From positions 1 through 64,000 of IMG/VR virus record IMGVR_UViG_3300027969_000086: a stretch of DNA of 64,000 nucleotides. One strand, given 5' to 3'. A program made the translations under genes and the position numbers. Source of the stretch: a virus. A model generated the notes under the pieces. It had not been told where the DNA came from, ran no database searches, and was given only the letters and a program-made list of their open reading frames with translations. This document shows positions 19,714 to 40,265 of the stretch, in pieces; position 1 is the first letter of the stretch, and each line of letters opens with the position of its first letter.

Positions 19714-19716
19714 ATA
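19711..19716 (+). promoter_or_regulatory. Putative late promoter ACTAAATA
   Basis: TAAATA overlaps the stop codon of the giant fibre and is followed by a GGAG ribosome site and the ATG at 19733. Confidence 0.6.
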
Positions 19717-19732
19717 CATTGGAGAAAACATT

Positions 19733-20053: not shown

Positions 20054-20068
20054 TTTAAGGAATAAATC

Positions 20069-21001: not shown

Positions 21002-21005
21002 AAAG

Positions 21006-21815
21006 ATGGCGATATTACAGAATACCAGTTTTAGAGGAACAACGAACACGTTGCAACTGCCTTCTGGAACCACAGCCCAACGCCCAGCAAGTCCTATAGA
21101 AGGCATGATTCGTTTCAATTCCACAATAGGAATAAACGAAGTGTTCATGAACAATGCTTGGGAAAACATGACATCTCCCATAGCCAACACAAAATGTTAT
21201 CTTCCGTTGTTTGGAACAGCCGACGGAGACATCACTGACACAACCAGCGGTGTTGTAGGAACATTAAGTGGCGGCACAAGAAATTATCTGCAAAGCGGAT
21301 ACAATGGACTTAGACTCGAATCTGATGCTTACCTAGATATCATGACCACAGAGCTTAGAAAACTAGACGGTAACCCTTTTTGGACCATTGAATTCTGGTT
21401 GTACAAAACCGGCGGCGTTGGCAGCTCAGCAGAAACCATGGTTGAACTATGTCACTACACTCGTGGATTGCTATATAGAGCAAACGACAGTGACGGAACC
21501 AACAACTATTGGAGAGGTACATCTATTAACTTAGGTACAACTACTAGTAACGCATGGGTTCATCATGCTGTAGTTGGCTATGGAGCAAACATCAAAGTAT
21601 TTAAAAACGGAACACAGGTAGCCGACACCATGAATGCCGTGGGAGTTTCAAGATTTGCTGATCCGATAACCACAGGTGGACATGATTTGTGTCGCATCGG
21701 CCGTTCAAGTCACACTAGTGGTCAGTATACCAACGGAACATTTAGAAAATTCAAGGTAAGTAACAGCGCAAGATATCTAGCAAACTTTACTTCATCTTCA
21801 GTATATCCTTTATAA
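21006..21815 (+). CDS. Adhesin with LamG/concanavalin A-like domain
   Basis: 269 aa. Residues 1-45 are a fibre attachment module (LQLPSGTTAQRPASPIEGMI, then RFNSTIGINEVFMNNAWENM) shared with neighbours. From about residue 60 a jelly-roll pattern follows: the GLRLESDAYLDI strand, PFWTIEFWLYKTGGV, WVHHAVVGYGANIKVFKNGT and a closing GTFRKFKVSNSARYLANF, as in LamG/ConA-like lectin folds. The likely role is glycan or surface binding at a fibre tip. It has no signal peptide. The ATG sits five bases after the S74 gene, with AAAAGATGG and no strong ribosome site, so translational coupling is likely. Confidence 0.75.
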   Translation: MAILQNTSFRGTTNTLQLPSGTTAQRPASPIEGMIRFNSTIGINEVFMNNAWENMTSPIANTKCYLPLFGTADGDITDTTSGVVGTLSGGTRNYLQSGYNGLRLESDAYLDIMTTELRKLDGNPFWTIEFWLYKTGGVGSSAETMVELCHYTRGLLYRANDSDGTNNYWRGTSINLGTTTSNAWVHHAVVGYGANIKVFKNGTQVADTMNAVGVSRFADPITTGGHDLCRIGRSSHTSGQYTNGTFRKFKVSNSARYLANFTSSSVYPL

Positions 21816-21827: not shown

Positions 21828-23717
21828 ATGGCGATTTTACAAAGTACAACAATTGGAGGAACTGGTTATCTACAACTACCAGTTGGAACCAGTGCCGCCC
21901 GCCCAACAGAGCCAGCTTGGACTGTAGTATCGTTGACCGCAACAGGCAGCGGTAACTGGACAGTTCCAGCAGGCGTTACACAAGTCGATGTACTTGTAGT
22001 TGGTGGTGGTGGTGGTGGTGGCTGCTGGGTAGGTGGTGGTGGTGGTGGTGGTGGCGTTCTTTATCGTGAAGGCTACGCGGTTACAGCAGGCAGCACCATA
22101 GCATATACAGTAGGTGTAGGCGGAACTGGTGAATATAATCCGGGAGGCTACAGTGGGATGCCTAGAGCAACCAACGGTGGTGCATCAACCTTTGGTGCTA
22201 TTACAGCACTAGGTGGCGGCCGTGGCGGCAGCTGGGACACATATCCTGCAACAACAGGAGCTAGTGGCGGTGGTAACGGATATTCAACGGTTGGCGCAGC
22301 CGGCACAGCTGGACAGGGATTTCGAGGCGGTACAGGACGAGGTGATAGCACTAACGGCTACCCAACAGGTGGTGGCGGTGGTGCAGGCGGCCCCGGCGGT
22401 AATTGGCGTGAAGCAGGAAGTGGGGAACTTACCACAGGGCCTTGGGGTCAAAATGGTAAAAGTGGAGACGGTGGTCCTGGACTAGGATTTAACATTTCCG
22501 GCACAATGACCTTTTATGGTGGTGGTGGTGGTGGTGGCATCCACGGAAGTAGCAGTGATGCCCGTCCGGGATTTGGTGGTATCGGTGGCGGTGGTGACGG
22601 CAATGGCCCGTCAACAACACTAGCAGCACATCAAACTGCACGAGCAAACAGCGGTGGCGGTGGAGGTGGCGGTGGCAACGGTGGTGGATCACCTAGTTAT
22701 GGTGGCGCGGGCGGCAGTGGTGTTATTATCATTAGATACACTACAGGCGACGCAGTTAACCTAAGACAAGGCGCAATCCGCTTAAACACACAAAAAGGAC
22801 TTGAGTTCTATCGCGGTGAAGGCCGCTGGTTGAACTTGTCGATGCCATTCCCATACAGAACAGTTATTACCACTGGTTATATGGCCGGTGGATATAAAGA
22901 TTCAAGTCCGTGGAACAACGTTAATAGAATTTATCATTCAACAGATGTATCGGTTAACCTAGGCGACGGCGCAATTGCAAGAACCTTTAACTATCAAAGC
23001 GGCTCCTGCGGTCTAAACATTGGCTACATATGGGGCAGCGGAAACGGCCATGCGGTAGCAAGTAATTATGTACAAGGGTTTAACATGCGAACTGAAACTG
23101 CATATAATCCGCCGATTACTGCGTTGACCAACAATAGATACAACTCTGGTACAATATTCAACGAACATTATTTTTCTTTCACTTCGGGCGGCGGGGCAGC
23201 TGAAATTGAAGAATACAATTTGACCAACGAAGTCAAACAAACTTCCCCAGCAGGCGGCTTTTCCTCTACAGGTCAATGGGGTATGAGTCACGAAACCTAC
23301 GGTACTTGGTATTGGGAAGAAGATTCAAGAAACTTCCACTATGCTGCAAGAACAGTTACAGCACAATTTGGCGGACAGCCTAGTGCATACCATCAACAGA
23401 AATCTGTACAAAGTAAATACTCAAATAACTATGCAGGTAACGAAGGCAGCTATAACGGTGGATACAATCTTCGTAGAACCAATATGTATACTAGAACAAG
23501 TAGCGGTACTGTGGCCAAACCTAGAACCAACAACGGAGAAGAAAACTATAGCTTAGGGCAAGACTGGCAATACCTACTAGGCGAATATAATGGCGCTCAA
23601 AACAACAATAGTTGGAAGTTCTATTATTCAACCGAATCTGGTTTTGCTGGCAGCAGCAGCATGGAGCCAAAAGGGCATGCCGGCTCAAGTTCTGGCGTTT
23701 GCTTCTGGAGATCATAA
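21828..23717 (+). CDS. Glycine-rich adhesin
   Basis: 629 aa. Residues 1-25 are an attachment module (LQLPVGTSAARP). Residues about 30-305 are an extreme Gly-rich domain beginning WTVPAGVTQVDVLVVGGGG and ending GGSGVIIIRY, the recognised glycine-rich phage fibre domain, which in T4-like gp38 adhesins forms polyglycine II sandwiches that carry receptor-binding loops. Residues about 330-629 are a distinct beta domain (MAGGYKDSSPWNNVNRIYHS, VNLGDGAIA, then SSMEPKGHAGSSSGVCFW at the end) shared with the next gene. GGT triplet runs encode the Gly tracts. The stop overlaps the next ATG (TAATG). Confidence 0.82.
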   Translation: MAILQSTTIGGTGYLQLPVGTSAARPTEPAWTVVSLTATGSGNWTVPAGVTQVDVLVVGGGGGGGCWVGGGGGGGGVLYREGYAVTAGSTIAYTVGVGGTGEYNPGGYSGMPRATNGGASTFGAITALGGGRGGSWDTYPATTGASGGGNGYSTVGAAGTAGQGFRGGTGRGDSTNGYPTGGGGGAGGPGGNWREAGSGELTTGPWGQNGKSGDGGPGLGFNISGTMTFYGGGGGGGIHGSSSDARPGFGGIGGGGDGNGPSTTLAAHQTARANSGGGGGGGGNGGGSPSYGGAGGSGVIIIRYTTGDAVNLRQGAIRLNTQKGLEFYRGEGRWLNLSMPFPYRTVITTGYMAGGYKDSSPWNNVNRIYHSTDVSVNLGDGAIARTFNYQSGSCGLNIGYIWGSGNGHAVASNYVQGFNMRTETAYNPPITALTNNRYNSGTIFNEHYFSFTSGGGAAEIEEYNLTNEVKQTSPAGGFSSTGQWGMSHETYGTWYWEEDSRNFHYAARTVTAQFGGQPSAYHQQKSVQSKYSNNYAGNEGSYNGGYNLRRTNMYTRTSSGTVAKPRTNNGEENYSLGQDWQYLLGEYNGAQNNNSWKFYYSTESGFAGSSSMEPKGHAGSSSGVCFWRS

Positions 23718-24754
23718 TGGCAATTTTAGCAGCTAACTCATCAATAAATTCAACAGGCTTTTTACAGCTACCGTCAGATAATTCTACTAGCGGTACAGCT
23801 GGACAACTTAGATTTAATCCTAGAAGTAACATGATTGAAAGTTACGGTGGCTCAATAAACAGCAGCTGGGAGTTTGTAGGCATACCTTTCCAAGCACGAG
23901 ATGTTCAGGTTGCCGGATATCTACACGGTGGTTATGCTGCCAGCGTTGTATGGAATAATACCAACAGATTAACATTCGCCACAGACACATCTGTTAACCT
24001 TGGTGATAATCAAGAAGCTGGACACAACTATCAAAGCAGCGGATTTAGTCTAACAAGAAACTATACATGGGGTGCCAGCGGTTCTCACTGTGTTGCAGCC
24101 AGCAATATCATCTGTTTTGACATGGTCACTGAAGTATCGATTACTACAGGATATACTCGCAACATGCCAGGCAGTACTATTAACACTGGTACTATTCAAC
24201 AAGAACACTATTTTGCCTATATTGCACCGTCAAGCTACCTCAGCGGACAAATTTACGAATTCAACTTGACTACTCAAACACTGGGCACAACCTACGGCAC
24301 AGGTAACAACACCACCAGTTGGGGTGCTTGGACTGAACACTTTGGTATTTTTTATGGTGGTACAGAAAGAATTTTCAATTTTGCCACAAGAACACCATAT
24401 GATCGTTCAGCATCTACTGCAATAGCCGGAGATCCTTATCAACATAACATACAGACTAGACAGGCAACAACCATTGCAGGCCGCGAAGGTAATCCAAGCA
24501 CCAATTGGCGTATTACTAACTATCAAAACAATGCCAGCTATAATGCTATAGGTGCTAAACCTGCATATAGCGGTGAAGAAAATATGGTCAGTGCAAGAGA
24601 TTGGGGATATTGCCAAGGTTTTTACAACGGAAGTCACGTTAATACAACCTACAAAGTTCAATTTGCAACTTGGGGAGGATTTGTTGGGTCAAGCTCAATG
24701 GAACCAAAAGGCAAAAGTGGTAACAGTTCCGGAACTATGTCATGGCGTCCATGA
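23717..24754 (+). CDS. Putative adhesin sharing the C-terminal domain of the Gly-rich protein
   Basis: 345 aa from the ATG at 23717, which overlaps the upstream stop by one base. An upstream in-frame start at 23612 would lie inside the previous gene and was rejected because MAILAANSSINSTGFLQLPS matches the N-termini of the two preceding proteins (MAILQ...). The body is a domain of about 300 aa shared with the C-terminus of the 21828 product: YLHGGYAASVVWNNTNRLTF, TSVNLGDNQEAG, and a C-terminal GFVGSSSMEPKGKSGNSSG. The fold is unknown but resembles repeated-blade beta proteins. A receptor-binding role is inferred. Confidence 0.75.
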   Translation: MAILAANSSINSTGFLQLPSDNSTSGTAGQLRFNPRSNMIESYGGSINSSWEFVGIPFQARDVQVAGYLHGGYAASVVWNNTNRLTFATDTSVNLGDNQEAGHNYQSSGFSLTRNYTWGASGSHCVAASNIICFDMVTEVSITTGYTRNMPGSTINTGTIQQEHYFAYIAPSSYLSGQIYEFNLTTQTLGTTYGTGNNTTSWGAWTEHFGIFYGGTERIFNFATRTPYDRSASTAIAGDPYQHNIQTRQATTIAGREGNPSTNWRITNYQNNASYNAIGAKPAYSGEENMVSARDWGYCQGFYNGSHVNTTYKVQFATWGGFVGSSSMEPKGKSGNSSGTMSWRP

Positions 24755-24759
24755 CCCTT

Positions 24760-24767
24760 TATAAATA
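24760..24767 (+). promoter_or_regulatory. Late promoter with full TATAAATA
   Basis: A perfect match to the T4 late consensus, 23 bases before the ATG at 24790. Confidence 0.78.
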
Positions 24768-24789
24768 GACACACAATAAAGGAAACACT

Positions 24790-25635
24790 ATGACTGACCG
24801 TAGAATGCAATATAACTCTAGTCGTTTTAATAGCGAAATTAACAGCGATGTTAGTATGCTATCAGAAGAAGATCAGAGTTTGATCAAAATTGCAATGAAC
24901 AAAGAATGGACCAACCCAAAATTCAAACTAAGATGGTTTGTTGGCCAGGCACAAATTACTCCATTTGCCAAGTTCCGTCAATGGCTTCTTGAAATTAAAG
25001 CAAAGGAAGAATCCATTGAAAACATGGAATATGAAATTGCCAAGCACGAAGTAGAGTGCGAGCGTTTTAGAAGAATGGCTGCAGAAGCCATTGACGACTT
25101 AGATCGTCGCCTTGCCGAGCTTGAATTATGGAATAGAGAACGCCTAAGCTATACCAGCAAGCGCAGACTGCAAGACTGGTATCTAGAACGCCAGCATCTA
25201 ATTGACTTATGCACCGAATTCATGGCTTCTGAAGAAGCAAAGCTCCCAGACGGCTCTGGCAGAACTTACATGGACATCATGAATACTGCCGAAGAAGATG
25301 TCTACGAAAGCCAATATTGGACTAATAGATTAGCCAAGCAGGCTGCATGTGATATGATTTTTTATGGTAGAATCAACAGCGGTAACATGGATGCTATCTT
25401 AATGTTAAGCCCAGATCAACAGTCTGAGACTCTAGCATTAACTGTTAATTTTGCAACCAAATTACAAGCATATCAAGGACAATTACAAAGTGCGGCAGAC
25501 AAACAACTAGGAGTTGGAACATTTAACACCGACGCCCTTACCACACCAAAAGAATTAATACAAGATAATTCGCTAGGATTAGCGCAAGAAAAGGAGATAT
25601 TTGATGTTTATAATTTACGAAACGATAGCCAGTAA
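24790..25635 (+). CDS. Helical hypothetical protein, possibly structural or assembly
   Basis: 281 aa with a late promoter upstream. The N-terminal third is polar (NSSRFNSEINSDVSMLSEED). Residues about 75-150 form a long charged helix or coiled coil (EESIENMEYEIAKHEVECER, then RRMAAEAIDDLDRRLAELEL). A Trp/Tyr-rich segment (RRLQDWYLERQHLIDLCTEF) follows. The pattern is typical of conserved helical proteins of T4-like phages with no assigned function. The next gene starts 32 bases before its stop and has its own AAGGAG site inside this gene. Confidence 0.7.
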   Translation: MTDRRMQYNSSRFNSEINSDVSMLSEEDQSLIKIAMNKEWTNPKFKLRWFVGQAQITPFAKFRQWLLEIKAKEESIENMEYEIAKHEVECERFRRMAAEAIDDLDRRLAELELWNRERLSYTSKRRLQDWYLERQHLIDLCTEFMASEEAKLPDGSGRTYMDIMNTAEEDVYESQYWTNRLAKQAACDMIFYGRINSGNMDAILMLSPDQQSETLALTVNFATKLQAYQGQLQSAADKQLGVGTFNTDALTTPKELIQDNSLGLAQEKEIFDVYNLRNDSQ

Positions 25636-26149
25636 TGATCCAAGGCGTGACAGCCGGATACAAGATATCGGTTCATTTTGGCATTATACGATAGCCAGAG
25701 TAGATCCAAGTGTCGCCAACGGAGTTCAAGTTGACTGGCTTAAGGGTGATGTAACCACAGAACAAATTGCCATGGCTCACAAGTTGGCAACTTCAGTAGA
25801 CGGTGAAATCACTGTTGTAAATGCAAACATTAGTTCGTATGCTGATATTTCTTATCCTAGCAGTGGTGGCAATCTAGGCTATACCAAACAAACTTATTTC
25901 TTAACTGATGTTGATAAAACTTATACTAAAACTTTCTTGCAAAAAGTTTGTAAAATACATATCAAAAATCACCTAGTCTGTGACGGAACAAAAAATCCCG
26001 TTGGTACAGATGTTAAGTTAAATGAAGAAATTGATAATGCATATGATGTCAACCAAATGCATATATTGATGAGGAATTATTTTGAAATGGATTGCAGTGC
26101 CTATACTATAAATCGACCAAGGGATCCCAAGTTTGTTGTGAAATGGTAA
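25604..26149 (+). CDS. Hypothetical protein
   Basis: 181 aa from the ATG at 25604, preferred to an in-frame TTG three bases earlier because AAGGAG at 25591-25596 fits the ATG. It overlaps the upstream gene by 32 bases in another frame. Segments include GSFWHYTIARVDPSVANGVQ, ITVVNANISSYADISYPSSG and a C-terminal INRPRDPKFVVKW. It is soluble, with no signal peptide or recognised catalytic motif. It ends 8 bases before the TTGCGA of the promoter for the halogenase cluster, so it is the last gene of the upstream late unit. Confidence 0.65.
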   Translation: MFIIYETIASNDPRRDSRIQDIGSFWHYTIARVDPSVANGVQVDWLKGDVTTEQIAMAHKLATSVDGEITVVNANISSYADISYPSSGGNLGYTKQTYFLTDVDKTYTKTFLQKVCKIHIKNHLVCDGTKNPVGTDVKLNEEIDNAYDVNQMHILMRNYFEMDCSAYTINRPRDPKFVVKW

Positions 26150-26156
26150 TATCACA

Positions 26157-26185
26157 TTGCGAAGTCCAACTAAAGGTGTTATACT
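26157..26185 (+). promoter_or_regulatory. Sigma70-like promoter of the halogenase cluster
   Basis: TTGCGA (26157-26162), a 17-bp spacer and TATACT (26180-26185), 28 bases before the ATG at 26213. This is a host-type promoter in a region otherwise served by late motifs. Confidence 0.7.
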
Positions 26186-26198
26186 AAGTAGTATACAC
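26172..26198 (+). other. Hairpin overlapping the promoter -10: terminator or operator
   Basis: An inverted repeat of about 12-13 pairs with one bulged T and an AAGT loop (left arm 26172-26184, right arm 26189-26201 approximately), followed by a T-rich ATTTA. It could end transcription from the upstream unit while its left arm contains the -10 box, or act as an operator. Confidence 0.6.
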
Positions 26199-26212
26199 CT
26201 TTATTTACGACT

Positions 26213-27892
26213 ATGCGAAAAATATTCAGCGTACCACTTAATCCCAAACTAAATCCAGAGCAGTACTCAGAGTTCCTTAGTTTTCTTTCACAATACAAAG
26301 ATTATATTAGAGATGTGTATTTTACATCTCGCATCAAACCTTTTGTGCAAGATGCTATGGGAGATGTATTTCTACTAGAGGAGTATCACTTCAGTGCTAT
26401 TGAAGCAGCATTGAATATACAAAAAACCCTAGGAATTTCAGTAAGCGCAACATTTAATAATATCGAAATCCCTGCCACACAACAAAATTTAGATTTGTTT
26501 ATTAAAAATTTTAAACCATTGTATGATGCAGGGATCCGTAGTGCTACAATTCCGCACACACATTGGATGGCAACTGGCCAGATCAAAGCTGCCTTTCCTG
26601 AGTTGTATGTAAAAAATACCATACTTCGTGAAGTACACACTGCACAGGAAGTAGTTAATCTTGCTAATTACGGGTTTGATTATATTAATCTTGATAGAGA
26701 CATGATGCGAGATCATGTCCTCCTTCGAACAATTAAAAAAGCAAAAGCATACATCAAAGAAACCACAGGCAGAGATATTGCAATTAGCCTATTAGGTAAC
26801 GAAGGATGTGTAGGTGGTTGCAGCATGATGGTTGAGCATTTTCAATTCAATAACAATCGATCCGGGGATACGCCGCAATACTTCAACGATGCTATTAGCA
26901 GAACCAGTTGTAAAAAATGGGAAGTTGAAGACCCTGCAATATTTTTAAAAACTGCAAACTTTCCGCCATGGAGAGCAGACTGGGATCAATTTATCGACGA
27001 GCTAGGCATTGATAGTATCAAAATGCATGGCCGTGAAGCAATCACTCGTCTGTATGAAACTATGGACATTATTAAAAACTATGCAGAAGGCAAAGACATA
27101 TTGTTTCAAGGATTCGAAAATTATCTAGAAGAAACAAACCTAACAGAAAAGCCAATAAACATTTGGCGTGAAAAAATTAAAACTTGTCAGTTCGAATGTT
27201 GGTCATGCCAATACTGCGATAAAATTTACGATAAAAAATCCAAGTTGGTATATTCTGAATTAGTTCAACATACAGCACAATGTATTTCAGATTCCGGAAT
27301 ACCAACAATGCGATTAGATATCCCCGGTCTTACCAGTCCTAGAGTACAGACGCTGTTAAATTCTCTAGCTAAGGGTGTAAACACCTATTTAGAAGTGGGC
27401 GCCGCAATGGGTGCAACCTTTTGTGCCGCTATTAAAGGCAATCCAATACATGCAATTGCTGTTGACAATTGGAAAGAACAAATTCAACCTGCAAGAAATG
27501 ATTTAAATCAGCTTCCTAGGAACAATGTTCAAACATTTATTGAAAATGTTAAGAAGCATAAAGGACTAGCTGAAGTAGATATTTTAAACGGCGACTTATT
27601 TAAAGCAGATGTTTCTCAATTCTCATCCAACATTGAGATGTTTTTTTATGACGGCCCTCATGATTTTGAAAGTACAAAGCGAGCGGTTGAGCATTACTAT
27701 CCAATTCTAGCCAATGAGTGTATTATTGTATTTGATGATGCAAATTGGCAATCAGTTGTTGAAGGTGCGCAGGCCGGCATTAACAGTGTAGGCGCTCGAG
27801 TTACTTTTGAAAAGATGATGTTGAACTCCCTAGAAAGCCCAAACGAATGGTGGAATGGGCTATACATTGTTGTAATTAGAAAAAATGATTAA
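26213..27892 (+). CDS. U32-peptidase-like domain fused to a SAM methyltransferase
   Basis: 559 aa. Residues about 40-300 resemble U32-family TIM-barrel proteins: a long run of strand-helix units, then LDRDMMRD (160-167) and LLGNEGCVGGC with C199 and C203 before H209. In that family cysteines near this place bind an Fe-S cluster; C233 and the group C325, C329, C332, C335 are further candidates. Residues about 360-555 are a class I SAM methyltransferase: YLEVGAAMG (392-400) is motif I, FFYDGPHDFESTKRAVEHYY fits the Methyltransf_24 type, and IIVFDDANW follows. No substrate is known. It is first in a promoter-headed cluster and overlaps the halogenase gene by eight bases, so the two probably act together. 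Confidence 0.6.
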   Translation: MRKIFSVPLNPKLNPEQYSEFLSFLSQYKDYIRDVYFTSRIKPFVQDAMGDVFLLEEYHFSAIEAALNIQKTLGISVSATFNNIEIPATQQNLDLFIKNFKPLYDAGIRSATIPHTHWMATGQIKAAFPELYVKNTILREVHTAQEVVNLANYGFDYINLDRDMMRDHVLLRTIKKAKAYIKETTGRDIAISLLGNEGCVGGCSMMVEHFQFNNNRSGDTPQYFNDAISRTSCKKWEVEDPAIFLKTANFPPWRADWDQFIDELGIDSIKMHGREAITRLYETMDIIKNYAEGKDILFQGFENYLEETNLTEKPINIWREKIKTCQFECWSCQYCDKIYDKKSKLVYSELVQHTAQCISDSGIPTMRLDIPGLTSPRVQTLLNSLAKGVNTYLEVGAAMGATFCAAIKGNPIHAIAVDNWKEQIQPARNDLNQLPRNNVQTFIENVKKHKGLAEVDILNGDLFKADVSQFSSNIEMFFYDGPHDFESTKRAVEHYYPILANECIIVFDDANWQSVVEGAQAGINSVGARVTFEKMMLNSLESPNEWWNGLYIVVIRKND

Positions 27893-29399
27893 TAGAACAC
27901 AAAAAATAATTATATTTGGCGGTGGTACAAGTGGTTGGCTGTCAGCAGCATACCTTACACACAATTTACAAGTGCCCTGTGAAATCACTTTAATTGAAGA
28001 TACTACATTAGGCCCTATCGGAGTCGGCGAAGGAACACAACCACTGACAGCTCAGTTCTTGTTTCAATGTGGACTTAATCCGGCCCAATGGATGAAACCC
28101 AGTAATGCAGCATTTAAATTAGGTGTAGAACTCAGCGGATGGAACGACGAGCCTTATTTTGTAGACAATGACGGATTACAAAGTTCGTTCATAGCTGAAG
28201 ATTTATATACCAGCGACTATTTCATTAAAAAACCCTATAGCGAATTTGCAAAGTTTCATCCCGCCTATCAACTAGCTAAGGCTAACCTAAGTCCAAAAAT
28301 GTTTGATCATTTAGACACTAGCTTTGGCGCAAACAACGAAGGCTACGGTGCCGTACATTTTTCTGCATACGAAATTTTAGATGCTCTTAAAGAACTGATA
28401 GGCAATAAGGTCAAACATATTGATACTAGAATTGCCAAGGTTGAAAAAGACATACACGGCATCACTAAACTAATTGACGACAACGGACAGAGTTATTCTG
28501 CAGATCTTTATATTGACTGTAGTGGATTCAATTCTATACTATTGGAAAAAACACTAGGAGTTGCATTTACATCTTACGATAAATGGTTGCCTAATGATCG
28601 TGCTGTAGTAATGCCTACGCAATTTAAAGACCCGGAAACTGAATGCTTCCCATATACAAAAGCAACTACAATGACTGCCGGATGGAGATTTACTATCCCT
28701 ATCTATACAAGAACAGGCAACGGCTATGTTTACAGCAGTAAATTTATCAGCGACGAAGACGCTGAAAAAGAACTAAGAGAAACAATTGGAGAATTTGAGG
28801 CCCCGGCAAAATTCTTAAAAATGAAGTGCGGGTATCATAAAGAAATTGCAGTTAAGAATGTGGTAGCAGTAGGACTCAGTGCAGGATTTGTAGAGCCATT
28901 AGAAGCAACAGGTATCACCTTTACTACCGCAGTGATTAAATCAGTAACCGATTTGCTGAATATGAATAGAAATATATGGAATCAACCAATCAAAGATTTA
29001 ATTAATCGAGGCTTCTATGAAATGAACATGGAAATTCTAGCATTTGTTTGGGCGCACTATCATTTCTCAAAGAGGTCAGATACACCATTCTGGCAAAGCA
29101 TTAGACAACAAGATATCAAAGATCTGCCTGAAGATGTACAATTCATACTAGGTCATTTCTATCCTCGTCCGGGAAGATTCCTATACTTTAGTAAAAGCTC
29201 TATGTTTAATATTGTTCAGTGGTTCAGTGTGTTACATGCCGGCGGGGCCTACGACAATCTAGAAAAAATTGACAGACCAAACGAAAACGAATATGCAGAA
29301 TATTTTATTGATGTTCAAAACTATAGAGTAGAGCAAGCAAAAAAACGATTTCCGAATCATTACGCTTACTTAGATCAATGGTATAAAAATAATTCTTAA
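27885..29399 (+). CDS. FAD-dependent halogenase (tryptophan-halogenase family)
   Basis: 504 aa. The FAD-binding GGGTSGW is at 12-18. K78 in NAAFKLGVELSGW sits where PrnA has its catalytic lysine (K79). GWRFTIP (266-272) takes the place of the family WxWxIP motif, here W.F.IP. GFVEPLEATGI (334-344) keeps the glutamate (E340) and the Thr-Gly pair that in PrnA contact the halide site. DCSGFNS (211-217) is a further family segment. Relatives are known in cyanophages (VirX1 of phage Syn10). The enzyme would need a reduced-FAD supply from the host. The substrate is unknown; the upstream fusion enzyme and downstream genes are candidates for the same pathway. Length is normal for the family. Confidence 0.88.
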   Translation: MINRTQKIIIFGGGTSGWLSAAYLTHNLQVPCEITLIEDTTLGPIGVGEGTQPLTAQFLFQCGLNPAQWMKPSNAAFKLGVELSGWNDEPYFVDNDGLQSSFIAEDLYTSDYFIKKPYSEFAKFHPAYQLAKANLSPKMFDHLDTSFGANNEGYGAVHFSAYEILDALKELIGNKVKHIDTRIAKVEKDIHGITKLIDDNGQSYSADLYIDCSGFNSILLEKTLGVAFTSYDKWLPNDRAVVMPTQFKDPETECFPYTKATTMTAGWRFTIPIYTRTGNGYVYSSKFISDEDAEKELRETIGEFEAPAKFLKMKCGYHKEIAVKNVVAVGLSAGFVEPLEATGITFTTAVIKSVTDLLNMNRNIWNQPIKDLINRGFYEMNMEILAFVWAHYHFSKRSDTPFWQSIRQQDIKDLPEDVQFILGHFYPRPGRFLYFSKSSMFNIVQWFSVLHAGGAYDNLEKIDRPNENEYAEYFIDVQNYRVEQAKKRFPNHYAYLDQWYKNNS

Positions 29400-29408
29400 G
29401 GATTTAAC

Positions 29409-29822
29409 ATGTTAACTGAGACAACACTAGGCGAATATGTACTGTATACAAATACAATACGACAAGCTAAAGATGCTTACACTGCTAGAAAAGTACAAAA
29501 AGACAAAAAGAAATTAAAAACTTGGATGAATGCATTATTAGAAGATAGAGATCTTATAGTATTTCATAAAGAAAACGGCAACGAAAAGATGTCAGTGGTA
29601 ACAAGAAAAACTAATAATATAATATTTGCCGATGCACCTCTTTCTTGGGAAACAGTTGGTCCTCAGACATATCTTGTTTTAGATTATGTATTGGGTTATG
29701 AGCTGCCAAGTACATTTGCAATAGCAATTCATGCCAACGACATTACAAAATTTATGTGCAAAGCAGAAGGTATAACAGAACTTAGCAGAACTGTACAGTG
29801 GTATTCATATGGACACTATTGA
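29409..29822 (+). CDS. Hypothetical protein of the halogenase cluster
   Basis: 137 aa, nine bases after the halogenase and overlapping the next gene by 14. It has a basic N-terminal helix (ARKVQKDKKKLKTWMNALLE), then a compact alpha/beta-looking segment (SVVTRKTNNIIFADAPLSWE, TYLVLDYVLGYELPSTFAIA) and a terminal WYSYGHY. There is no known motif, signal peptide or membrane segment. Tight spacing makes it part of the same operon, so a role in supplying or presenting the halogenation substrate is possible but unproven. Confidence 0.65.
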   Translation: MLTETTLGEYVLYTNTIRQAKDAYTARKVQKDKKKLKTWMNALLEDRDLIVFHKENGNEKMSVVTRKTNNIIFADAPLSWETVGPQTYLVLDYVLGYELPSTFAIAIHANDITKFMCKAEGITELSRTVQWYSYGHY

Positions 29823-30543
29823 ATTTTTTACAGCAGCACCGGGTCTTTCGGATCTATTTCCAATCATACCAGCCAGCCAATATAGAGCTAACTGGATGGC
29901 CGCGGCCAAGAACGACTGGGTCGCCAACAAAGATAAATTTACTAAGTCTCGACAGACACATATATTTCAATGTCCTGGAATATTTGACATGTTCAATCAC
30001 GGGTACATTATTCCTTTATGGCATGATCTAATAATTCGAACAGACGGACCCACCCGCCCATTTTCGTGGAGTATACCTTCGGGAGCATTAAATTCCTATC
30101 GAGGAAAAGAAGTTGTGGGAACGCATAAACCCGGTCTTGATAAATTTATCCCTAAGCGTCCTTGGAGTCACCAACAGGTTATAAAATTAGATACTCCTTG
30201 GAATATAATAGCACCAAAGGGTGTAAAGTTCTTAATGTTGCCTATTGCATATCCCGACGAATTTACATTTGAAAATGCCGCAGGCATTTTAGACCCTGCA
30301 GTTAGTACAGAAATAAATTTACAAATTCATTGGAATGTACTACAAGGAGAAACACTTATCAAAGCAGGCACGCCAATCGGACATTTAATTCCACTATCCG
30401 AAAAAAACTACGATTTAGTTGTAAGAGAAATGTCCGATAACGATAAAATGTGGATAGAAAAACGAAACTTGTTTATGAGTGTATTTTTTAGACAGAACAG
30501 AAATCTGCTAAAAGATTTCTATCACAAGCATTTTAAAAAATGA
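29809..30543 (+). CDS. Hypothetical protein (DUF6065-like pattern) of the halogenase cluster
   Basis: 244 aa. It contains DMFNHGYIIPLWHDLIIRTD, PWNIIAPKGVKFLMLPIAYP, AAGILDPAVSTEINLQIHWN and LIKAGTPIGHLIPL. The order W.I.AP.GV, GILDP, IN, G..I.AGTP...IPL is one I associate, from memory, with the DUF6065 family, whose function is not established; this should be confirmed by search. The segments suggest a cupin-like double-stranded beta barrel. It overlaps the genes on both sides by 14 and four bases. A linked role with the halogenase is inferred from order. Confidence 0.6.
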   Translation: MDTIEFFTAAPGLSDLFPIIPASQYRANWMAAAKNDWVANKDKFTKSRQTHIFQCPGIFDMFNHGYIIPLWHDLIIRTDGPTRPFSWSIPSGALNSYRGKEVVGTHKPGLDKFIPKRPWSHQQVIKLDTPWNIIAPKGVKFLMLPIAYPDEFTFENAAGILDPAVSTEINLQIHWNVLQGETLIKAGTPIGHLIPLSEKNYDLVVREMSDNDKMWIEKRNLFMSVFFRQNRNLLKDFYHKHFKK

Positions 30544-30869
30544 AATTTACAAAGATTTCGTTTACTACAAGATTTACCGAGCAAGGGCAAATATACACAA
30601 CATATCGAGCTCTTGAAAAGATATTTGGGCGCCCCTATTTCGGGCCCGGCGAAGAAGACAACCCACCTACGGACGGAATGTTAGCTAGAGTCACTTGTCA
30701 GTGGCGGCTGCGGTATGAAGACGGCACTGTGGCAATCGTATACGACGATCGTCAAAAAACCACAAACTATGCTCCGTATTACTGGCGAGTTGGCGGATTT
30801 AGTGGCCGATCTTTTGAACTAGTACAACAAACAATCAAAGAATACAATGAACAACAGAAACATAAATAG
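30540..30869 (+). CDS. Small conserved-type protein ending the halogenase cluster
   Basis: 109 aa with an ATGA overlap with the previous stop. The core FGRPYFGPGEEDNPPTDGML, WRLRYEDGTVAIVYDDRQ and YYWRVGGFSGRSFELVQQTI has the shape (W...F.DGT...IYD...W.IGG.S..A) of a small protein common in marine T4-like phages and of unknown function. It lacks catalytic motifs. A late promoter lies within its stop codon region and starts the next virion unit. Confidence 0.6.
   Translation: MKFTKISFTTRFTEQGQIYTTYRALEKIFGRPYFGPGEEDNPPTDGMLARVTCQWRLRYEDGTVAIVYDDRQKTTNYAPYYWRVGGFSGRSFELVQQTIKEYNEQQKHK
30863..30868 (+). promoter_or_regulatory. Putative late promoter CATAAATA
   Basis: TAAATA overlaps the end of the 30540-30869 gene and lies 25 bases before the ATG at 30893. 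It marks the switch back to virion genes. Confidence 0.65.
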
Positions 30870-30892
30870 TGTAATACTGAGCAAATTACATT

Positions 30893-32368
30893 ATGCCATC
30901 CAATAGAAATCCAGTTGTAAATTTAGTAAGATTTACACCGAATGATGAAGACTTCCTTAATAGAAAGCTAGGTTCGCGAGGGGAAGTTTTCTATGATCAA
31001 GATAACGATACCCTTAGAATTTATAACGGTGCTGATACTGCTGGTATTAAGTTAGCCCGAAACGACCTCATTGGGGTGTCAGCAGCATCTATGCGGGATG
31101 CTTTGATTATCAGCAGATCCGCCACAGTCTACTATACTACAACTATTGTAGGTCCACAGAGTCCTGATACAGGAAACAAATATGCATTAAATGGCGAGTA
31201 CAGACCCAAGCCAAATTTTGTAACCGGCTATACCTATATATTTGATCAAAGCGATGACACCAATGTCTACTGGCCTAATGCCAACGGCACTACACAAAAT
31301 AGACACCCATTGAATTTTTCATCAGATAATCTAAGCGGTGTTCGAGGTGGCGGTACCGCCTATACTTCAAATGTAGTATATAAATTAGATGGCGAAATTG
31401 TAACATACGCAACTTATAACAGTGTGGCATTTGATAATGCCGACACTCGTACGGTACAGATTACAGTAACTAACGCTACCCCAACAACACTATATTATTG
31501 GTGTTATAATCACCTTGCTATGGGAGAAGAAATTGCCGTAGCAGATCCAGGCAGTGGTGCAGGTGGTGCAACAGTTTCAGTTGGCAATACACTACCAGAA
31601 GATCCAATAAGTGGAAATTTATGGCTTAATACTGACAATGGTAGATTATATGTTTACATAGATGACGGTACATCTACACAGTGGATGCAGCCAAGTGTGC
31701 CTATGCCTAGCTTAGGCAGTATATCATTTACTGGCACAGTTATAGATTCAGTTGACTCTAGTTCGATATCATTTACACCTGCGGTGACTTTCAATTCAGA
31801 TATACGCATTGAAAATGATTTAATTATTGCAGGCAATATTGTATACGGAAACGAAAAATTAGCCACAGAGTCATATGTTAGCACAGCACTTGAACAAGTG
31901 GTTGTTGAAGCACTTTCAATAAATGCTTCAACTGTTGGATTAGGCAATGTAACTAACGAATCAAAAGCTACAATGTTCACTAGTCCAACATTTACCGGAA
32001 CTTCTACATTCCAACAATCTGTCGAAGTATTGAATACTAAAACAGGGGCAACAGGAACTGTTGATCACGATTATTCTACAGGAGCCATTTGGTATCATAC
32101 TAGTTTAGCTGATAATTTCACAGCTAATTTTACCAATGTGCCTACCACTGCTAGTCGAGCTATCTCAATTGTTCTTGTATTAATACAAGGAGCTACCCCG
32201 TATGTTCCAAATGTATTACAGATAGACGGTACACCTGTAACTATTAATTGGCTAGCTGGATTAACACCATCCGGAAACGCCAGCAAAAAAGACATTGTTA
32301 GTTTTACATTTACTAGAATAGCATCGAGTTGGACAGTTTTTGGCAGTTTAAGCTCATTCGGAACATAA
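30893..32368 (+). CDS. Fibre-like virion protein with cupredoxin-like domain
   Basis: 491 aa. Residues 1-55 are an attachment module (FTPNDEDFLNRKLGSRGEVF, YDQDNDTLRIYNGADTAG). Residues about 75-215 resemble a cupredoxin: YTYIFDQSDDTNVYW, NRHPLNFS with H138, and LYYWCYNHLAMGEE with C204, H207 and M210, spaced as type-1 copper ligands (C-x2-H-x2-M). Residues 225-275 (LPEDPISGNLWLNTDNGRLY) are a further fibre module, and the C-terminal half is beta-rich shaft and knob. Such modules are recurrent in marine T4-like phage structural proteins. Whether metal is bound is not known. Confidence 0.75.
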   Translation: MPSNRNPVVNLVRFTPNDEDFLNRKLGSRGEVFYDQDNDTLRIYNGADTAGIKLARNDLIGVSAASMRDALIISRSATVYYTTTIVGPQSPDTGNKYALNGEYRPKPNFVTGYTYIFDQSDDTNVYWPNANGTTQNRHPLNFSSDNLSGVRGGGTAYTSNVVYKLDGEIVTYATYNSVAFDNADTRTVQITVTNATPTTLYYWCYNHLAMGEEIAVADPGSGAGGATVSVGNTLPEDPISGNLWLNTDNGRLYVYIDDGTSTQWMQPSVPMPSLGSISFTGTVIDSVDSSSISFTPAVTFNSDIRIENDLIIAGNIVYGNEKLATESYVSTALEQVVVEALSINASTVGLGNVTNESKATMFTSPTFTGTSTFQQSVEVLNTKTGATGTVDHDYSTGAIWYHTSLADNFTANFTNVPTTASRAISIVLVLIQGATPYVPNVLQIDGTPVTINWLAGLTPSGNASKKDIVSFTFTRIASSWTVFGSLSSFGT

Positions 32369-32369
32369 T

Positions 32370-33437
32370 ATGCCACGATTAACTAGTGTTCAGAGTAGAC
32401 AACTTAGCGGGCTAGCAACCAGTAGACCGTGGCTAATAACTTCTAGTGCAAATCCGGTTGCGGAAGGAAACACCTTTACATTAACAGCCTCTAATCCTCC
32501 AGGCTACGTCAGTGTATCACCATATACCCTTTCTGGTAATGCAGCAGCTGGTGAATCTCTAGAGTATCTACCAGTTCCGGGAACTTCTACATTGAGTTAT
32601 GTCCTAGGCAGCGTTGTTGATAAAATAGAATTAAAAACACTGAACGATCATCAAAATGCAACATCCAAGTCAGTGACTATGACAATTCAAGACGGAACAA
32701 TAACCGTTCCTATTACCGAAGCTGGGACACAATTAGGCGTACCAACTTATTCTACAGGAACTAATATTACATCGGGTAGTCTAGGCGGCATCAATAATGC
32801 AACCATAACAACAACAGGATGGCGCAAATATCTTTCAGCTAATCAGAGTACCGGTAGACTAACATTAACATTACCTAGTACTTTATCAATTCCTTGCACG
32901 ATTGAATTCTATGGAAGATTAAACGGTATTAATACAGGATCATCTGATCTAGCAACATATCTAAGCGTATCTAATTCAGCAACAGATCAGTTTGTTGGCC
33001 TGATGTATAAGCCACAGGTATTTCCGTATACGCACCAGGGTGGTATTAATGTACGACCCGACGGCGGATTCGATGTAACCGCAGCTACAGATATTTGGAC
33101 TTGGCATGTAATAACCATTGATGCAAGCTGGGTTCCTCGTTATTATCATTTGCAACTATACACCGAAAACGGTACAAGAAAGTGGGGTTATAGAAATGCA
33201 ACAGGTCTTGATCAAGCAATCAACGTTACCTCAAGAACCTCCTGGAATCGACTTAACTTTATTGCACCACCTGCAACCTATTCTAATACATTCTACGACG
33301 GATTAACCTATGTTGACTATCACACTGTTCGAATTAGCAATATCAATAGATACGGAACTTCTACAATGATTACCCCACCAGATCCGTATACATTAGAAAC
33401 AGATGGAAATACTGTGGCGATTTATAGATTTGCATAA
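32370..33437 (+). CDS. Virion protein with lectin-like C-terminal domain
   Basis: 355 aa, one base after the previous stop. Residues about 20-120 look like an Ig/calx-beta-like module (NPVAEGNTFTLTASNPPGYV, then SKSVTMTIQDGTITVPITEA). From about 150 a jelly-roll pattern appears: RLTLTLPSTLSIPCTIEFYG, IWTWHVITIDASWVPRYYHL, ENGTRKWGYRNATG, and a final YVDYHTVRISNINRYGTS, similar to LamG/ConA-like folds. It may bind glycans at the phage surface. There is no signal or catalytic motif. Confidence 0.7.
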   Translation: MPRLTSVQSRQLSGLATSRPWLITSSANPVAEGNTFTLTASNPPGYVSVSPYTLSGNAAAGESLEYLPVPGTSTLSYVLGSVVDKIELKTLNDHQNATSKSVTMTIQDGTITVPITEAGTQLGVPTYSTGTNITSGSLGGINNATITTTGWRKYLSANQSTGRLTLTLPSTLSIPCTIEFYGRLNGINTGSSDLATYLSVSNSATDQFVGLMYKPQVFPYTHQGGINVRPDGGFDVTAATDIWTWHVITIDASWVPRYYHLQLYTENGTRKWGYRNATGLDQAINVTSRTSWNRLNFIAPPATYSNTFYDGLTYVDYHTVRISNINRYGTSTMITPPDPYTLETDGNTVAIYRFA

Positions 33438-33439
33438 CA

Positions 33440-33445
33440 TAAATA
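33440..33445 (+). promoter_or_regulatory. Putative late promoter CATAAATA
   Basis: TAAATA lies 21 bases before the ATG at 33461, with an AGGA ribosome site between them. Confidence 0.65.
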
Positions 33446-33460
33446 ATTTTAGGAACAACT

Positions 33461-34321
33461 ATGGCAATTAATTTTCCATCATCGCCCGCTGCAAATGCAA
33501 CATACTCGTCAGGAGATGCTACCTGGATCTTTGACGGAACAGTTTGGGACTTGTTAACTGCTAGCAGCCAAGTGGTAATTTCTACCCCTAATACTTTTTC
33601 AACAGTAGCGGTTGCTGGACAGAGTAATGTGGTTGCAGATACTTCAACCGATACCCTTACATTAATTGCCGGTAGCAATGTCACGCTAACTACCGATCCC
33701 TCATCCGACAGTATCACTATTAATTCTACAGCAGGTGGCGGTGGCGGCGGCACTAGCAATTCATTTGCAAATATAGCGGTTGCTGGACAAACTACGGTAG
33801 CGGCAGACAGTGATACTGATACACTTACCTTGGTAGGTAGTGGTATTACTATTACTACCAATGCAGGTACTGATACAATTACATTTACTAGTTCAGCAGC
33901 CAGTACTTTTGCAGGACTTACTGAAGTAGCTCTTGGAAGTTTTAGTATAGATCAAGTTTACATGCCTGCTATTACCATGCTCACTGTTAGCAATAGTGGA
34001 GCGGTTTCTTATTTGTTTGATCAATATTCAGGAAGCAATCCGACTATCTATGCCATAGGCGGAACTACTATAGCATTTAAATTACAATGTGCAGGCCACC
34101 CGTTTGTGATTCAAGACGGAACAGGTACAAATTACAATACTGGATTATTCCATGTAGCACTTAATGGAGCGGTTAGTACCGGATCAAATGCACAAGGACA
34201 GGTAAATGGAACACTATACTGGAAAGTTCCTGCATCTATTTCTGGAGGATACAGGTATCAATGTACACTGCATCCAATCATGGTCGGCGCTATTACAGTT
34301 AAAAACATCGTGAGCTTATAA
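33461..34321 (+). CDS. Virion protein with amicyanin/plastocyanin-like C-terminal domain
   Basis: 286 aa. Residues 1-35 are a common phage structural N-terminus (MAINFPSSPAANATYSSGDA, then WIFDGTVWDLL). Residues 45-145 hold two similar beta repeats (VAVAGQSNVVADTSTDTLTL; IAVAGQTTVAADSDTDTLTL) separated by a GGGGGG linker. Residues about 160-286 resemble a cupredoxin: GHPFVIQDG with H213, then YRYQCTLHPIMVGAITV with C268, H271 and M274. The C-x2-H-x2-M spacing and the HPxM sequence match the copper site of amicyanin. All four ligands of a type-1 site are present. A copper-binding virion protein is plausible but not shown. Confidence 0.75.
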   Translation: MAINFPSSPAANATYSSGDATWIFDGTVWDLLTASSQVVISTPNTFSTVAVAGQSNVVADTSTDTLTLIAGSNVTLTTDPSSDSITINSTAGGGGGGTSNSFANIAVAGQTTVAADSDTDTLTLVGSGITITTNAGTDTITFTSSAASTFAGLTEVALGSFSIDQVYMPAITMLTVSNSGAVSYLFDQYSGSNPTIYAIGGTTIAFKLQCAGHPFVIQDGTGTNYNTGLFHVALNGAVSTGSNAQGQVNGTLYWKVPASISGGYRYQCTLHPIMVGAITVKNIVSL

Positions 34322-35216: not shown

Positions 35217-37097
35217 TTAAGGATTTAGAGTCAATCTCCAAGATCCTGGCAAGTATTCACCCTCAAACGATTTCAACCATTGGACACCGTCCCACTTGTA
35301 TTGTATACCTGTTCGTAGGTTGGTAATGTAGATGTTGGTAGTAACTTCTTCAGGATCAAAAACACTAACCCAACGACTTCCATTCCACTCAATAATGCTG
35401 TTGGCTTTAATGAATACATCTGAATCGTCTAGATTTTTCCAAGCAGTTGGTCCCGAACTACGCTCTGGTTTACCTGGTAAGTAAACATCAGTTTCAACGA
35501 GTAGGGTATCGGGATCGTCGCCTTCTGAGAACCAATCTGGATAGGTATATTTTTCAATGGTGTACTTTATAACACTGGCAACGCCATTGCCGTCTTCTAG
35601 TGGAGGAAACTCATTCAGTCGTATTTTGTATTTGCCTGACACTGTTCTGTAACTTGTTGATGCAAAAGTTTCAAATACACCGCCGTCTTCAACTTCTGTA
35701 AATCCCACTTCAACACCGTTGACATACACTTTGGTTTGAAAAATGTTGCTATACGACCTTGGCAAGTTAGAGGCGCTGGCCTTTTGCTTTTGATCGGGTC
35801 TAACAATTCTGTAGTAATCTATGTCAGTGTCAATAATATTGGTAGCAATGCTGGCTGCTCGAGTTGGTGCAAGAAACATGTTTAGATCATCTAACATTAG
35901 ATATCTTAATCCAACAGGATAGTTTGCCTTTGTTCCGTAGGTCGACAACGGATTGAAGTTATAGGGATTAATGATAGCATCTATTGTGCCCTTGCTGGCT
36001 GAACGCACACTGGTATAAACTGTGTTGTCAGGATATCTTCCTGTGGCAATCAATGTATTGCCCGGAACGGTGTCCATGTCCATAGACACAACCAATAGTG
36101 TAGGATCTACAGGGTTGACAGTAATGGAGCCAACAAGTTCGCCACCGTTAGGCTGTTTAAATGTAATTCTGCTAACACCTTCTTTATAACCACCATATTG
36201 ATCTAGCACCAATTGCCAATCTAATTTTTTGCCAATTTTTTCAGGAGGTAAATCTAGTCCAGCATCAAGCACAGCCTGTCCAACATCCACAATACTGATA
36301 TTATAATCTCCAGCTACTCCGTTATCTGCCTTTAGCATAACAATGCCATAGCGTTTGTATTCAACAGCAGTTTGCAGATCTCCGTCGTTGTAAATCAAGT
36401 TGTTGATGTTAACTGCATCGCCTGTATTAGTAAACATATTGTTGATAACTGCACGAACAACACCCAGTTTCTTGACTTTAGTCGGAGGACTAATGTATAT
36501 AGGCATTTCAAATTCTAAACTGGCAATGTCTATATCGGTGTCTGTACCTTGTGGTATTGACCTAGAACTAAAATTTGTACTAGTAAGATAGATAACACTA
36601 AGACTGGTCCAATCAACATAGTTGTCTGTAGTCTGCACTTCAAGACTAGGATTGAATAGGATTAATATTTGCTCAAGCAATTGCAATTTTTGATCAGTGT
36701 TAGATGTCCATACATCTGCCTTGACCTTGAGTTTAAAAGGAGTAGGCATCAATCTTTCAACAGTATAGCCTGCACCTTGTTCAGTACCATATACTCGTTG
36801 CCCTGCAACATCTTCATAGGTGCGCTCTCGTATATTCACCTTGCTGACAAATGTGCTGTCTGCTAATCTACTAGTGTCTAATTCTAACCCCGTAATATAA
36901 CAGGAAATTCTAGGAACTGTAGGCATTTTGTTTTCGCTATTATCTTTAATGATACTAGCAACTTGCCTAGTTAGGTCACCATACATAACAGGCACCAGGC
37001 GTTCTTCTTTGTCCCCAGCCTGATATTTAAATCCAATAAACACCCGCATGAACTGTGTTACATACCGGCGTATCTGTCCATCATAAAAGAAATCCAT
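35217..37097 (-). CDS. 15: Tail sheath stabiliser and completion protein gp15-like
   Basis: 626 aa. The N-terminus MDFFYDGQIRRYVTQFMRVF compares with T4 gp15 (YFYNSSFRRYATL), and VPVMYGDLTRQVASIIKDNS, VERLMPTPFKLKVKADVWTS and EQILILFNPSLEVQT are typical of the T4-like marine gp15. In T4, gp15 forms the hexameric ring ending the contracted or extended tail and joins it to the neck. The protein is more than twice the T4 length (272 aa); the extra C-terminus has W-rich fibre-like modules (SIIEWNGSRWVSVFDPEE, IQYKWDGVQWLKSFEG). It follows gp14 with a TAATG overlap. Confidence 0.8.
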   Translation of the reverse strand: MDFFYDGQIRRYVTQFMRVFIGFKYQAGDKEERLVPVMYGDLTRQVASIIKDNSENKMPTVPRISCYITGLELDTSRLADSTFVSKVNIRERTYEDVAGQRVYGTEQGAGYTVERLMPTPFKLKVKADVWTSNTDQKLQLLEQILILFNPSLEVQTTDNYVDWTSLSVIYLTSTNFSSRSIPQGTDTDIDIASLEFEMPIYISPPTKVKKLGVVRAVINNMFTNTGDAVNINNLIYNDGDLQTAVEYKRYGIVMLKADNGVAGDYNISIVDVGQAVLDAGLDLPPEKIGKKLDWQLVLDQYGGYKEGVSRITFKQPNGGELVGSITVNPVDPTLLVVSMDMDTVPGNTLIATGRYPDNTVYTSVRSASKGTIDAIINPYNFNPLSTYGTKANYPVGLRYLMLDDLNMFLAPTRAASIATNIIDTDIDYYRIVRPDQKQKASASNLPRSYSNIFQTKVYVNGVEVGFTEVEDGGVFETFASTSYRTVSGKYKIRLNEFPPLEDGNGVASVIKYTIEKYTYPDWFSEGDDPDTLLVETDVYLPGKPERSSGPTAWKNLDDSDVFIKANSIIEWNGSRWVSVFDPEEVTTNIYITNLRTGIQYKWDGVQWLKSFEGEYLPGSWRLTLNP

Positions 37098-40233: not shown

Positions 40234-40265
40234 TTATGAGAGAACTAAACTCAGGAGATAACGAT

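Follow-up and report, generated by a model that had tools for sequence, protein, structure and literature searches.

A conserved halogenase cassette with its own host-type promoter in a myovirus structural region, and its possible role in modifying tail-fibre proteins

We analysed a stretch of 64,000 bases (the window) of the 68,591 bases of IMG/VR virus record IMGVR_UViG_3300027969_000086, in which five genes that include a predicted flavin-dependent halogenase form a compact cassette. Comparison with related loci shows that the halogenase (gene 2), gene 4 of the cassette and 2-oxoglutarate (2OG)-Fe(II) oxygenases constitute a conserved module that lies mostly in the tail-fibre region, and that in the phage group of the window gene 1 and a sigma70-type promoter are joined to this module. 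The feature is real and conserved, and its setting is broader than could be seen in the preliminary description, which had been made from the letters of the window. Our preferred reading, tentative and given somewhat less than an even chance, is that the cassette would carry out an oxidative modification coupled to the virion, most likely of tail-fibre proteins, a function and a substrate that we infer. The elements of the cassette are as follows.

26157..26185, plus strand: sigma70-type promoter TTGCGA-17-TATACT with an extended -10 (TG), found by scan and kept in relatives
26171..26203, plus strand: terminator-like hairpin of 14 pairs overlapping the -10; a T run follows in several relatives
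26213..27892, plus strand: gene 1, seven-cysteine barrel-like domain and O-methyltransferase fold (phrog_1458; Methyltransf_24)
27885..29399, plus strand: gene 2, predicted flavin-dependent halogenase (PF04820, catalytic motifs kept)
29409..29822, plus strand: gene 3, unknown protein
29809..30543, plus strand: gene 4, predicted dUTPase-fold protein without dUTPase motifs (phrog_7084)
30540..30869, plus strand: gene 5, unknown protein

The five plus-strand open reading frames span 26213-30869, encode proteins of 559, 504, 137, 244 and 109 amino acids (aa), and are joined by overlaps of 8, 14 and 4 bases and a single 9-base gap, so that the run of five genes with short overlaps given in the preliminary description is borne out by the coordinates. 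Related loci were fetched from IMG/VR with genes 1-4 as queries, keeping the best 80 matches per search, and were counted as unique proteins with the copy bearing the longest flanks retained; because the searches started from cassette genes and ordered their matches by similarity, the proportions hold for this clade and not for viruses at large. For 60 unique halogenase proteins, gene 1 stood directly upstream in 47 of the 49 with enough flank, gene 4 lay within 2.5 kb downstream in 48 of 59 and gene 3 in 39 of 57, and the gene that begins at 24790 in the window was found upstream in 39 of 41. A 2OG-Fe(II) oxygenase, tested as a PF13759 or PF13640 protein, was near the halogenase in 44 of 47 loci, with a contig identical to the window among the three lacking one; in the nearest relatives of the window the oxygenase is located either between the first two genes of the cassette or downstream of gene 2. 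At these frequencies of genes 1 and 4 the neighbours are linked to the halogenase in relatives, as the idea of an enzyme cluster had implied; unlinked neighbours were one of the two outcomes that the preliminary description would have taken as a refutation, and this outcome is not seen. Seen from gene 1, 103 loci carried the halogenase in 51 cases, gene 4 in 62, an oxygenase in 83 and the 24790 gene in 100. The distances among genes 1, 2 and 4 correlate with r values of 0.85-0.89 (45 loci), falling to 0.71-0.79 when measured to the 24790 gene and to 0.65-0.66 for a phrog_1417 gene further upstream, for which the best-scoring of several copies was used, and the association of genes 2 and 4 gave a p value of 8e-7, uncorrected for relatedness.

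The two small genes differ in how widely they travel with the halogenase. Gene 3 was present in 31 of 45 gene-1 loci with gene 2 and in none of 49 without it (94 loci), and a family search gave no family below an E value of 0.04. Gene 5, sought by tblastn in the first 51 loci, was found in the closest relatives (the contigs of loci L009-L012) and the identical contig only; it had no Pfam or NCBIfam match, and its best match in PHROGs had an E value of 0.062. Models for carriers, synthetases and transporters were matched by none of the five cassette proteins.

The core of the module also surrounds a second, distant group of viral halogenases. VirX1 comes from cyanophage Syn10, according to the review PMC8407142. 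From its second residue onwards the gp42 protein of phage syn9 has exactly the sequence of the solved VirX1 chain (PDB 6QGM), and in syn9 a second halogenase precedes gp42, the following gp43 is a gene-4 homologue, and a 2OG oxygenase lies two genes on. A search with gp42 as the query gave 40 unique loci with flanks; 34 of them have gene 4 downstream, 37 have an oxygenase, 13 have a second halogenase and a single one has gene 1. In 57 unique VirX1-type loci, counted without a shuffle control, the motif TAAATA, which resembles the T4 late motif, occurred within 80 bases of the halogenase in 36 and a sigma70-type match in 4. VirX1 is like gene 2 in being a PF04820 halogenase of a marine phage with gene 4 and 2OG oxygenases as partners, whereas the two differ in sequence (∼31% identity of gene 2 to the syn9 and Syn10 proteins), in gene 1, which stands beside 1 of 40 VirX1-type genes, and in the start signal, mostly a late motif rather than a sigma70-type promoter. 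Two distant halogenase groups thus have common partners and a different promoter type. Of this module the window has gene 4, and three profiles found no 2OG gene in the record. The preliminary description, which knew of single viral halogenases, had taken the gene set to be otherwise unknown; this does not hold, since its core, consisting of the halogenase, gene 4 and 2OG oxygenases, is found around VirX1 and VirX1 relatives too.

Among isolates, we hand-picked 14 halogenase regions from 82 records (four via the gene-4 search), and by the records' own labels a tail-fibre, tail-fibre-assembly or adhesin gene lies within three genes of the halogenase in eight of them: syn9, S-RIM44, P-TIM40, Sf-FR1, S-WAM1, P-SSM2, P-RSM6 and S-SRM01. 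The S-SRM01 halogenase is positioned between a tail-fibre gene and an adhesin tip gene. As a separate observation, the halogenase and gene 4 of the S-CREM1 locus (L003) are followed by a single run that comprises one JmjC gene and eight genes annotated as 2OG-Fe(II) oxygenases.

By profile and motifs gene 2 is a member of the flavin-dependent halogenase family, with a predicted activity. It matched PF04820 over its full length with an E value of 6.4e-96, passing the cut-off, and among 66 unique proteins the halogenase motifs GGGTSGW, GW.[FW]TIP, F[VI]EPLEATGI and FK.GV[EK] were kept in 65, 66, 65 and 59, respectively, which bears out the identification as a flavin adenine dinucleotide (FAD) halogenase made earlier. 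Its best solved relatives were the bacterial tryptophan halogenase 9luq and PyrH, with VirX1 lower in the list. K78 and E340 of gene 2 align with K75 and E354 of PyrH, which we take to be the catalytic lysine and glutamate, and His92 of PyrH, presumably with a role in tryptophan binding, aligns with Asp94; the C-terminal lid falls outside the PyrH alignment. Searches of 8 records, fragments among them, gave no Flavin_Reduct match, so the host or another enzyme would supply the reduced flavin. Gene 2 thus shares the family profile and the catalytic motifs with the bacterial tryptophan halogenases PyrH, RebH and PrnA and is unlike them in belonging to a viral operon, in having no Flavin_Reduct gene in those records and in not keeping His92. 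Two further arrangements of halogenase genes were noted. At L015:11965-13775 a second, divergent halogenase-family protein of 394 aa followed by a 2OG oxygenase lies inside the cassette, and at L036:9995-11494 and L276:8004-9503 relatives of gene 2 stand directly upstream of a polymerase-like gene.

The structure predicted for gene 4 has a dUTPase fold. The model had a mean predicted local distance difference test score (pLDDT) of 94.8 (62 sequences), and the best 50 matches listed for it were all dUTPases with both Foldseek (best E value 3.4e-4) and VIA (best Z score 10.6 over 132 residues, root-mean-square deviation (rmsd) 3.6). At the level of profiles, 4 of the 62 members reach the dUTPase family PF00692 (best E value 3.3e-4), and the 62-member profile matched no PDB chain up to an E value of 1. 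The patterns of dUTPase motifs 1, 2 and 5 were each found in 0 of 62 proteins, the Asp position of motif 3 was kept in 59, and Cys55 and Trp131 were invariant. Because these three patterns are missing and Cys55 and Trp131 are invariant, gene 4 is unlikely to be a dUTPase, and an active enzyme of this kind was rejected on the motifs. The likeness to dUTPases accordingly lies in the modelled fold, with few members reaching the profile, and the differences lie in the length of 244 aa, the missing motif patterns and the two invariant residues. One of the 62 members matched DUF6065 (E value 0.0052), and a distant homologue was found on a Rhizobium plasmid (E value 2e-3) in an uninformative context. 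A second, divergent gene-4 paralogue occurs in several cassettes, at L014:12787-13566 and similar places.

Gene 1 matched phrog_1458 with an E value of 2.5e-163 and the Methyltransf_24 profile with an E value of 1.2e-10. Its C-terminal part was modelled as an O-methyltransferase fold, with a Z score of 17.4 against TomG (173 residues, rmsd 2.8) and 16.6 against TrmR, and in profile and predicted fold it agrees with the class I O-methyltransferases. The N-terminal part was modelled as alternating strands and helices in a barrel-like arrangement; the full model is modest, with a pLDDT of 75 and parts of the cysteine regions below 50. All 164 unique sequences keep the seven cysteines at invariant positions, which suggests Fe-S binding. 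Comparison of the barrel with Peptidase U32 by hhalign gave a probability of 17% (P 0.0014) over collinear segments, and the score of 33.6 compares with at most 28.6 in 40 column shuffles and 15.2 with a reversed profile. Peptidase U32 was not listed up to an E value of 1 in the Pfam search of gene 1, and there was no U32 chain among the best 50 Foldseek and VIA matches for the full model, which were mostly methyltransferases. The essential residues of TrhP are given as E162, C170 and C177 in PMC6599085. In gene 1, position 191 (eight before C199), where the TrhP glutamate would be expected, is Ile, Leu, Tyr or Phe in 162 of 164 sequences, and the spacing of C170 and C177 is not matched, C199-x3-C203 being found instead. 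We therefore rejected a plain U32 protein, given the weak profile match and the absent TrhP residues, and regard the N-terminal part as a barrel with U32-like traits that is not a U32 member. Of the U32-like/methyltransferase fusion named in the preliminary description, the methyltransferase part stands and the U32-like part is weakly supported. The U32 hydroxylases TrhP, RlhA and UbiU/UbiV share with gene 1 a weak collinear similarity of the barrel profile, and gene 1 is set apart from them by its seven invariant cysteines, the C-x3-C spacing, the methyltransferase fusion and the lack of a glutamate at -8. Gene 1 was found in three loci on cellular genome contigs, all from metagenome-assembled genomes, of which L285, with tail-type genes recognized by eye, is probably viral.

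The cassette is preceded by a promoter that becomes convincing through its conservation. TTGCGA starts at 26157 and is separated by a 17-base spacer from TATACT at 26180-26185, which sits in the 5' arm of the 14-pair hairpin; bases 26150-26215 fold at -17.4 kcal/mol (z -3.84), with 0 of 200 shuffles as stable. A consensus scan of 23-35 kb gave 38 promoter-like matches, compared with 37.4 ± 5.8 in shuffles, and because the scan is at chance level and TATACT lies inside a hairpin, the window alone is insufficient for a promoter call. At a cut-off score of at least 11, however, a sigma70-type match was found before gene 1 in 17 of 25 loci, the window included, compared with 2% in shuffled upstream sequences, and eight control genes put through the identical test had 0 or 1 locus each. 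The best cases, TTGACA-17-TATACT or TTGACA-17-TATAAT, are in L017, L020, L023 and L039; L012, L026, L029 and L031 score below 11. In a wider set the promoter was present in 29 of 58 loci with the halogenase after gene 1 and in 3 of 79 without it (Fisher p 1e-10, uncorrected for relatedness), leaving 29 of the 58 without a promoter by this score, and TAAATA occurred there in 1 of 58. The strict motif TGNTATAMTAAGT occurs a single time in the 68.6-kb record, and of nine long records four have one copy each and the other five none, the single copy lying just before gene 1 in all four; a control with the reversed pattern gave 1 match. A chance promoter, plausible from the window alone, is thus rejected by conservation in relatives, and the host-type promoter proposed originally is supported. 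A terminator only was rejected as well, since L020, L023, L032 and L039 keep the promoter-like sequence despite a weaker fold (-9.8 to -15.7 kcal/mol over 90 bases) and no T run. Promoter and terminator functions may overlap at the hairpin, and the arrangement suggests that the hairpin ends the upstream late unit where the new unit begins.

The late motif is distributed differently. In the window TAAATA lies within 60 bases upstream of 11 of 51 listed plus-strand genes, including those at 24790, 30893 and 33461. In relatives, counted within 80 bases and without a shuffle control, it precedes the 24790 gene in 20 of 24 loci and the 30893 gene in 18 of 22, but none of 25 loci has it before gene 1. 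It was also found before gene 2 (6/28), gene 4 (2/24) and the 25601 gene (6/20), so a late start within the cassette is possible in some relatives. The statement that nearly every flanking unit uses this motif is hence correct for the nearest transcription units and not for the genes generally. Separate expression of the cassette, the further claim, fits the host-type promoter and the conserved cluster; activity before or besides virion assembly is unsupported as a general rule because TAAATA precedes 36 of 57 VirX1-type genes and because the genes recur in the tail-fibre region.

The reading of the cassette as virion-coupled modification rests on this setting, since enzymes for a small molecule would have no obvious reason to lie among fibre genes or behind late motifs, and a virion protein, probably the fibre, would then be the target. 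Of the two products envisaged in the preliminary description, a modified protein agrees better with the location of the genes than a halogenated small molecule does, both being inferred. Host RNA polymerase would transcribe the cassette from 26157-26185, the hairpin separating it from the upstream late unit, and the enzymes would modify tail-fibre polypeptides during their synthesis. Gene 2 would use reduced flavin from a host reductase to form hypohalous acid, which its conserved lysine would steer to an aromatic residue, while gene 1 and, in relatives, the oxygenases could add hydroxyl or methyl groups and gene 4 might bind or present the substrate rather than dUTP. The altered fibre residues could then change receptor binding or stability. 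A wider proposition, which we consider doubtful, is that marine phages possess a system devoted to placing halogen, hydroxyl and methyl groups on residues of their own virion proteins, whether tail fibres or others, with VirX1 as one of its enzymes; the composition of such a system from a halogenase, a catalytically repurposed dUTPase-fold adaptor, 2OG oxygenases and the seven-cysteine barrel-methyltransferase is put forward with the same reserve.

Several observations weigh against virion modification. The record of the window lacks a 2OG gene by the three profiles. The families of the genes immediately upstream of the cassette have no assigned function, and it is genes further upstream, at 6304-21815, that give the window its tail-fibre label. 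The L036 and L276 halogenases stand without gene 1, gene 4 or 2OG genes. The halogenase of S-H35 is among replication genes and that of S-MbCM6 among photosynthesis genes; in these two, as in S-PM2, S-H38 and HTVC008M, no gene within three genes is annotated as a tail fibre, and in S-CREM1 there is just a collagen-like gene, at a distance of two genes from the halogenase. The position in the tail region may be due to a hot spot for insertions, a metabolic gene would be served equally well by a host-type promoter, and the modelled fold of gene 4 could point to nucleotides.

Three other explanations were considered. An auxiliary small-molecule pathway, in which a host metabolite such as an indole or a phenol is hydroxylated, methylated and halogenated to give a signal, an antibiotic or an antioxidant, appears unlikely. 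Small aromatics are substrates of flavin-dependent halogenases and VirX1 iodinates many of them, as stated in PMC8407142, and antibiotic protection is proposed in PMC2984593 and PMC9964418. The separate host-type promoter and the place of the S-MbCM6 halogenase among photosynthesis genes agree with this pathway, whereas the recurrent position in the tail-fibre region, the late motif before VirX1-type genes, the five proteins without a carrier, synthetase or transporter match and the alignment of PyrH His92, to which we ascribe the tryptophan-binding role, with Asp94 of gene 2 argue against it. A collection of mobile accessory genes in a variable slot of the tail region, without a joint function, is rather more unlikely; it would explain why the halogenase is optional (51 of 103 gene-1 loci), why genes 3 and 4 are found in varying order and why oxygenases come and go, but the same partners recur across two halogenase groups, distances correlate, genes 2 and 4 are associated (p 8e-7 as above, uncorrected for relatedness) and the promoter is tied to the halogenase (29/58 versus 3/79).

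Modification of a nucleic acid, with a nucleotide or a DNA or tRNA base being hydroxylated, methylated and halogenated and gene 4 binding the nucleotide, we hold to be improbable. The predicted dUTPase fold of gene 4 would suit it, as would the resemblance of the gene 1 methyltransferase part to O-methyltransferases including TrmR (Z 16.6), and fusions of TrhO-type tRNA hydroxylases with TrmR occur naturally, according to PMC6599085. Two halogenase groups, L036 and L276, lie in front of a gene that looks by eye like a DNA polymerase, and the S-H35 halogenase lies among replication genes. Set against this, the dUTPase motif 1, 2 and 5 patterns are found in 0 of 62 gene 4 proteins, gene 1 has not kept the residues that the U32 hydroxylase TrhP requires, and most of the loci read have the cassette in the tail region.

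Viral halogenases have been known for years, and suggestions in print for their role are antibiotic protection or changed host metabolites. In the cyanophage papers PMC3037559, PMC2984593, PMC9964418 and PMC10452541, a halogenase (prnA) and 2OG oxygenases appear as separate genes, and the roles proposed are antibiotic protection, changed host metabolites, nitrogen signalling and DNA repair. PMC9964418 includes protein modification among the predicted roles of oxygenases and reports 14 S-CREM1 proteins detected in virions. Our search of the open-licence literature, as far as its texts were accessible, returned no paper treating the halogenase, gene 4 and the oxygenases as one system. Bacterial TonB/SapC/halogenase clusters offer a parallel, for which the literature search yielded no informative result. 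With a conserved set of partners and a recurrent place in the tail-fibre region, the question of the substrate becomes one that can be asked directly. If the modification of virion proteins is correct, it would constitute a phage system for oxidative protein modification and would make proteins or peptides candidate substrates for VirX1-type enzymes, and the module also suggests a function that some of the numerous 2OG oxygenases in marine phages may have.

The gene content of the window is that of a myovirus structural region. Several proteins at 6-22 kb match tail-fibre families, and 33-45 kb encodes a baseplate-fibre connector, a tail sheath stabiliser, a head-tail adaptor, the sheath and the tube. 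The nearest isolates by sheath protein are the large phages Sinorhizobium phage Phosso and the Pseudomonas PA5oct group (∼41% identity); a DNA-level search of a phage collection with 24,000-33,500 gave no matching record, and IMG/VR contig 3300009164_000167 carries genes 1-5 and their neighbours at 100% identity to the window. The following genes lead up to the cassette.

21828..24754, plus strand: two related genes at the end of the tail-fibre region (phrog_1417, function unknown)
24790..25635, plus strand: upstream gene with late motif (phrog_1409, function unknown), near gene 1 in 100 of 103 loci
25601..26149, plus strand: small fast-evolving protein directly upstream of the cassette

The first phrog_1417 gene also has a weak match to a tail-fibre-assembly family (E value 1.2e-5) and to Gly_rich_2. 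The 25601-26149 protein was found in 44 of 45 gene-1 loci with the halogenase and in 17 of 49 without it, and it accompanies gene 4 in 52 of 57 loci. As a substrate of the halogenase it was rejected, an alignment of 77 unique sequences having no tryptophan column above 80%. Elsewhere in the window, 6304-11754 encodes a tail-fibre protein of 1816 aa with five CBM_5_12 carbohydrate-binding modules. Two minus-strand genes are set within the plus-strand late region at 35217-38377, a 626-aa tail sheath stabiliser carrying a long C-terminal extension and a 426-aa virion structural protein, and the tail sheath protein itself, at 40236-43760, is very long, with 1174 aa.

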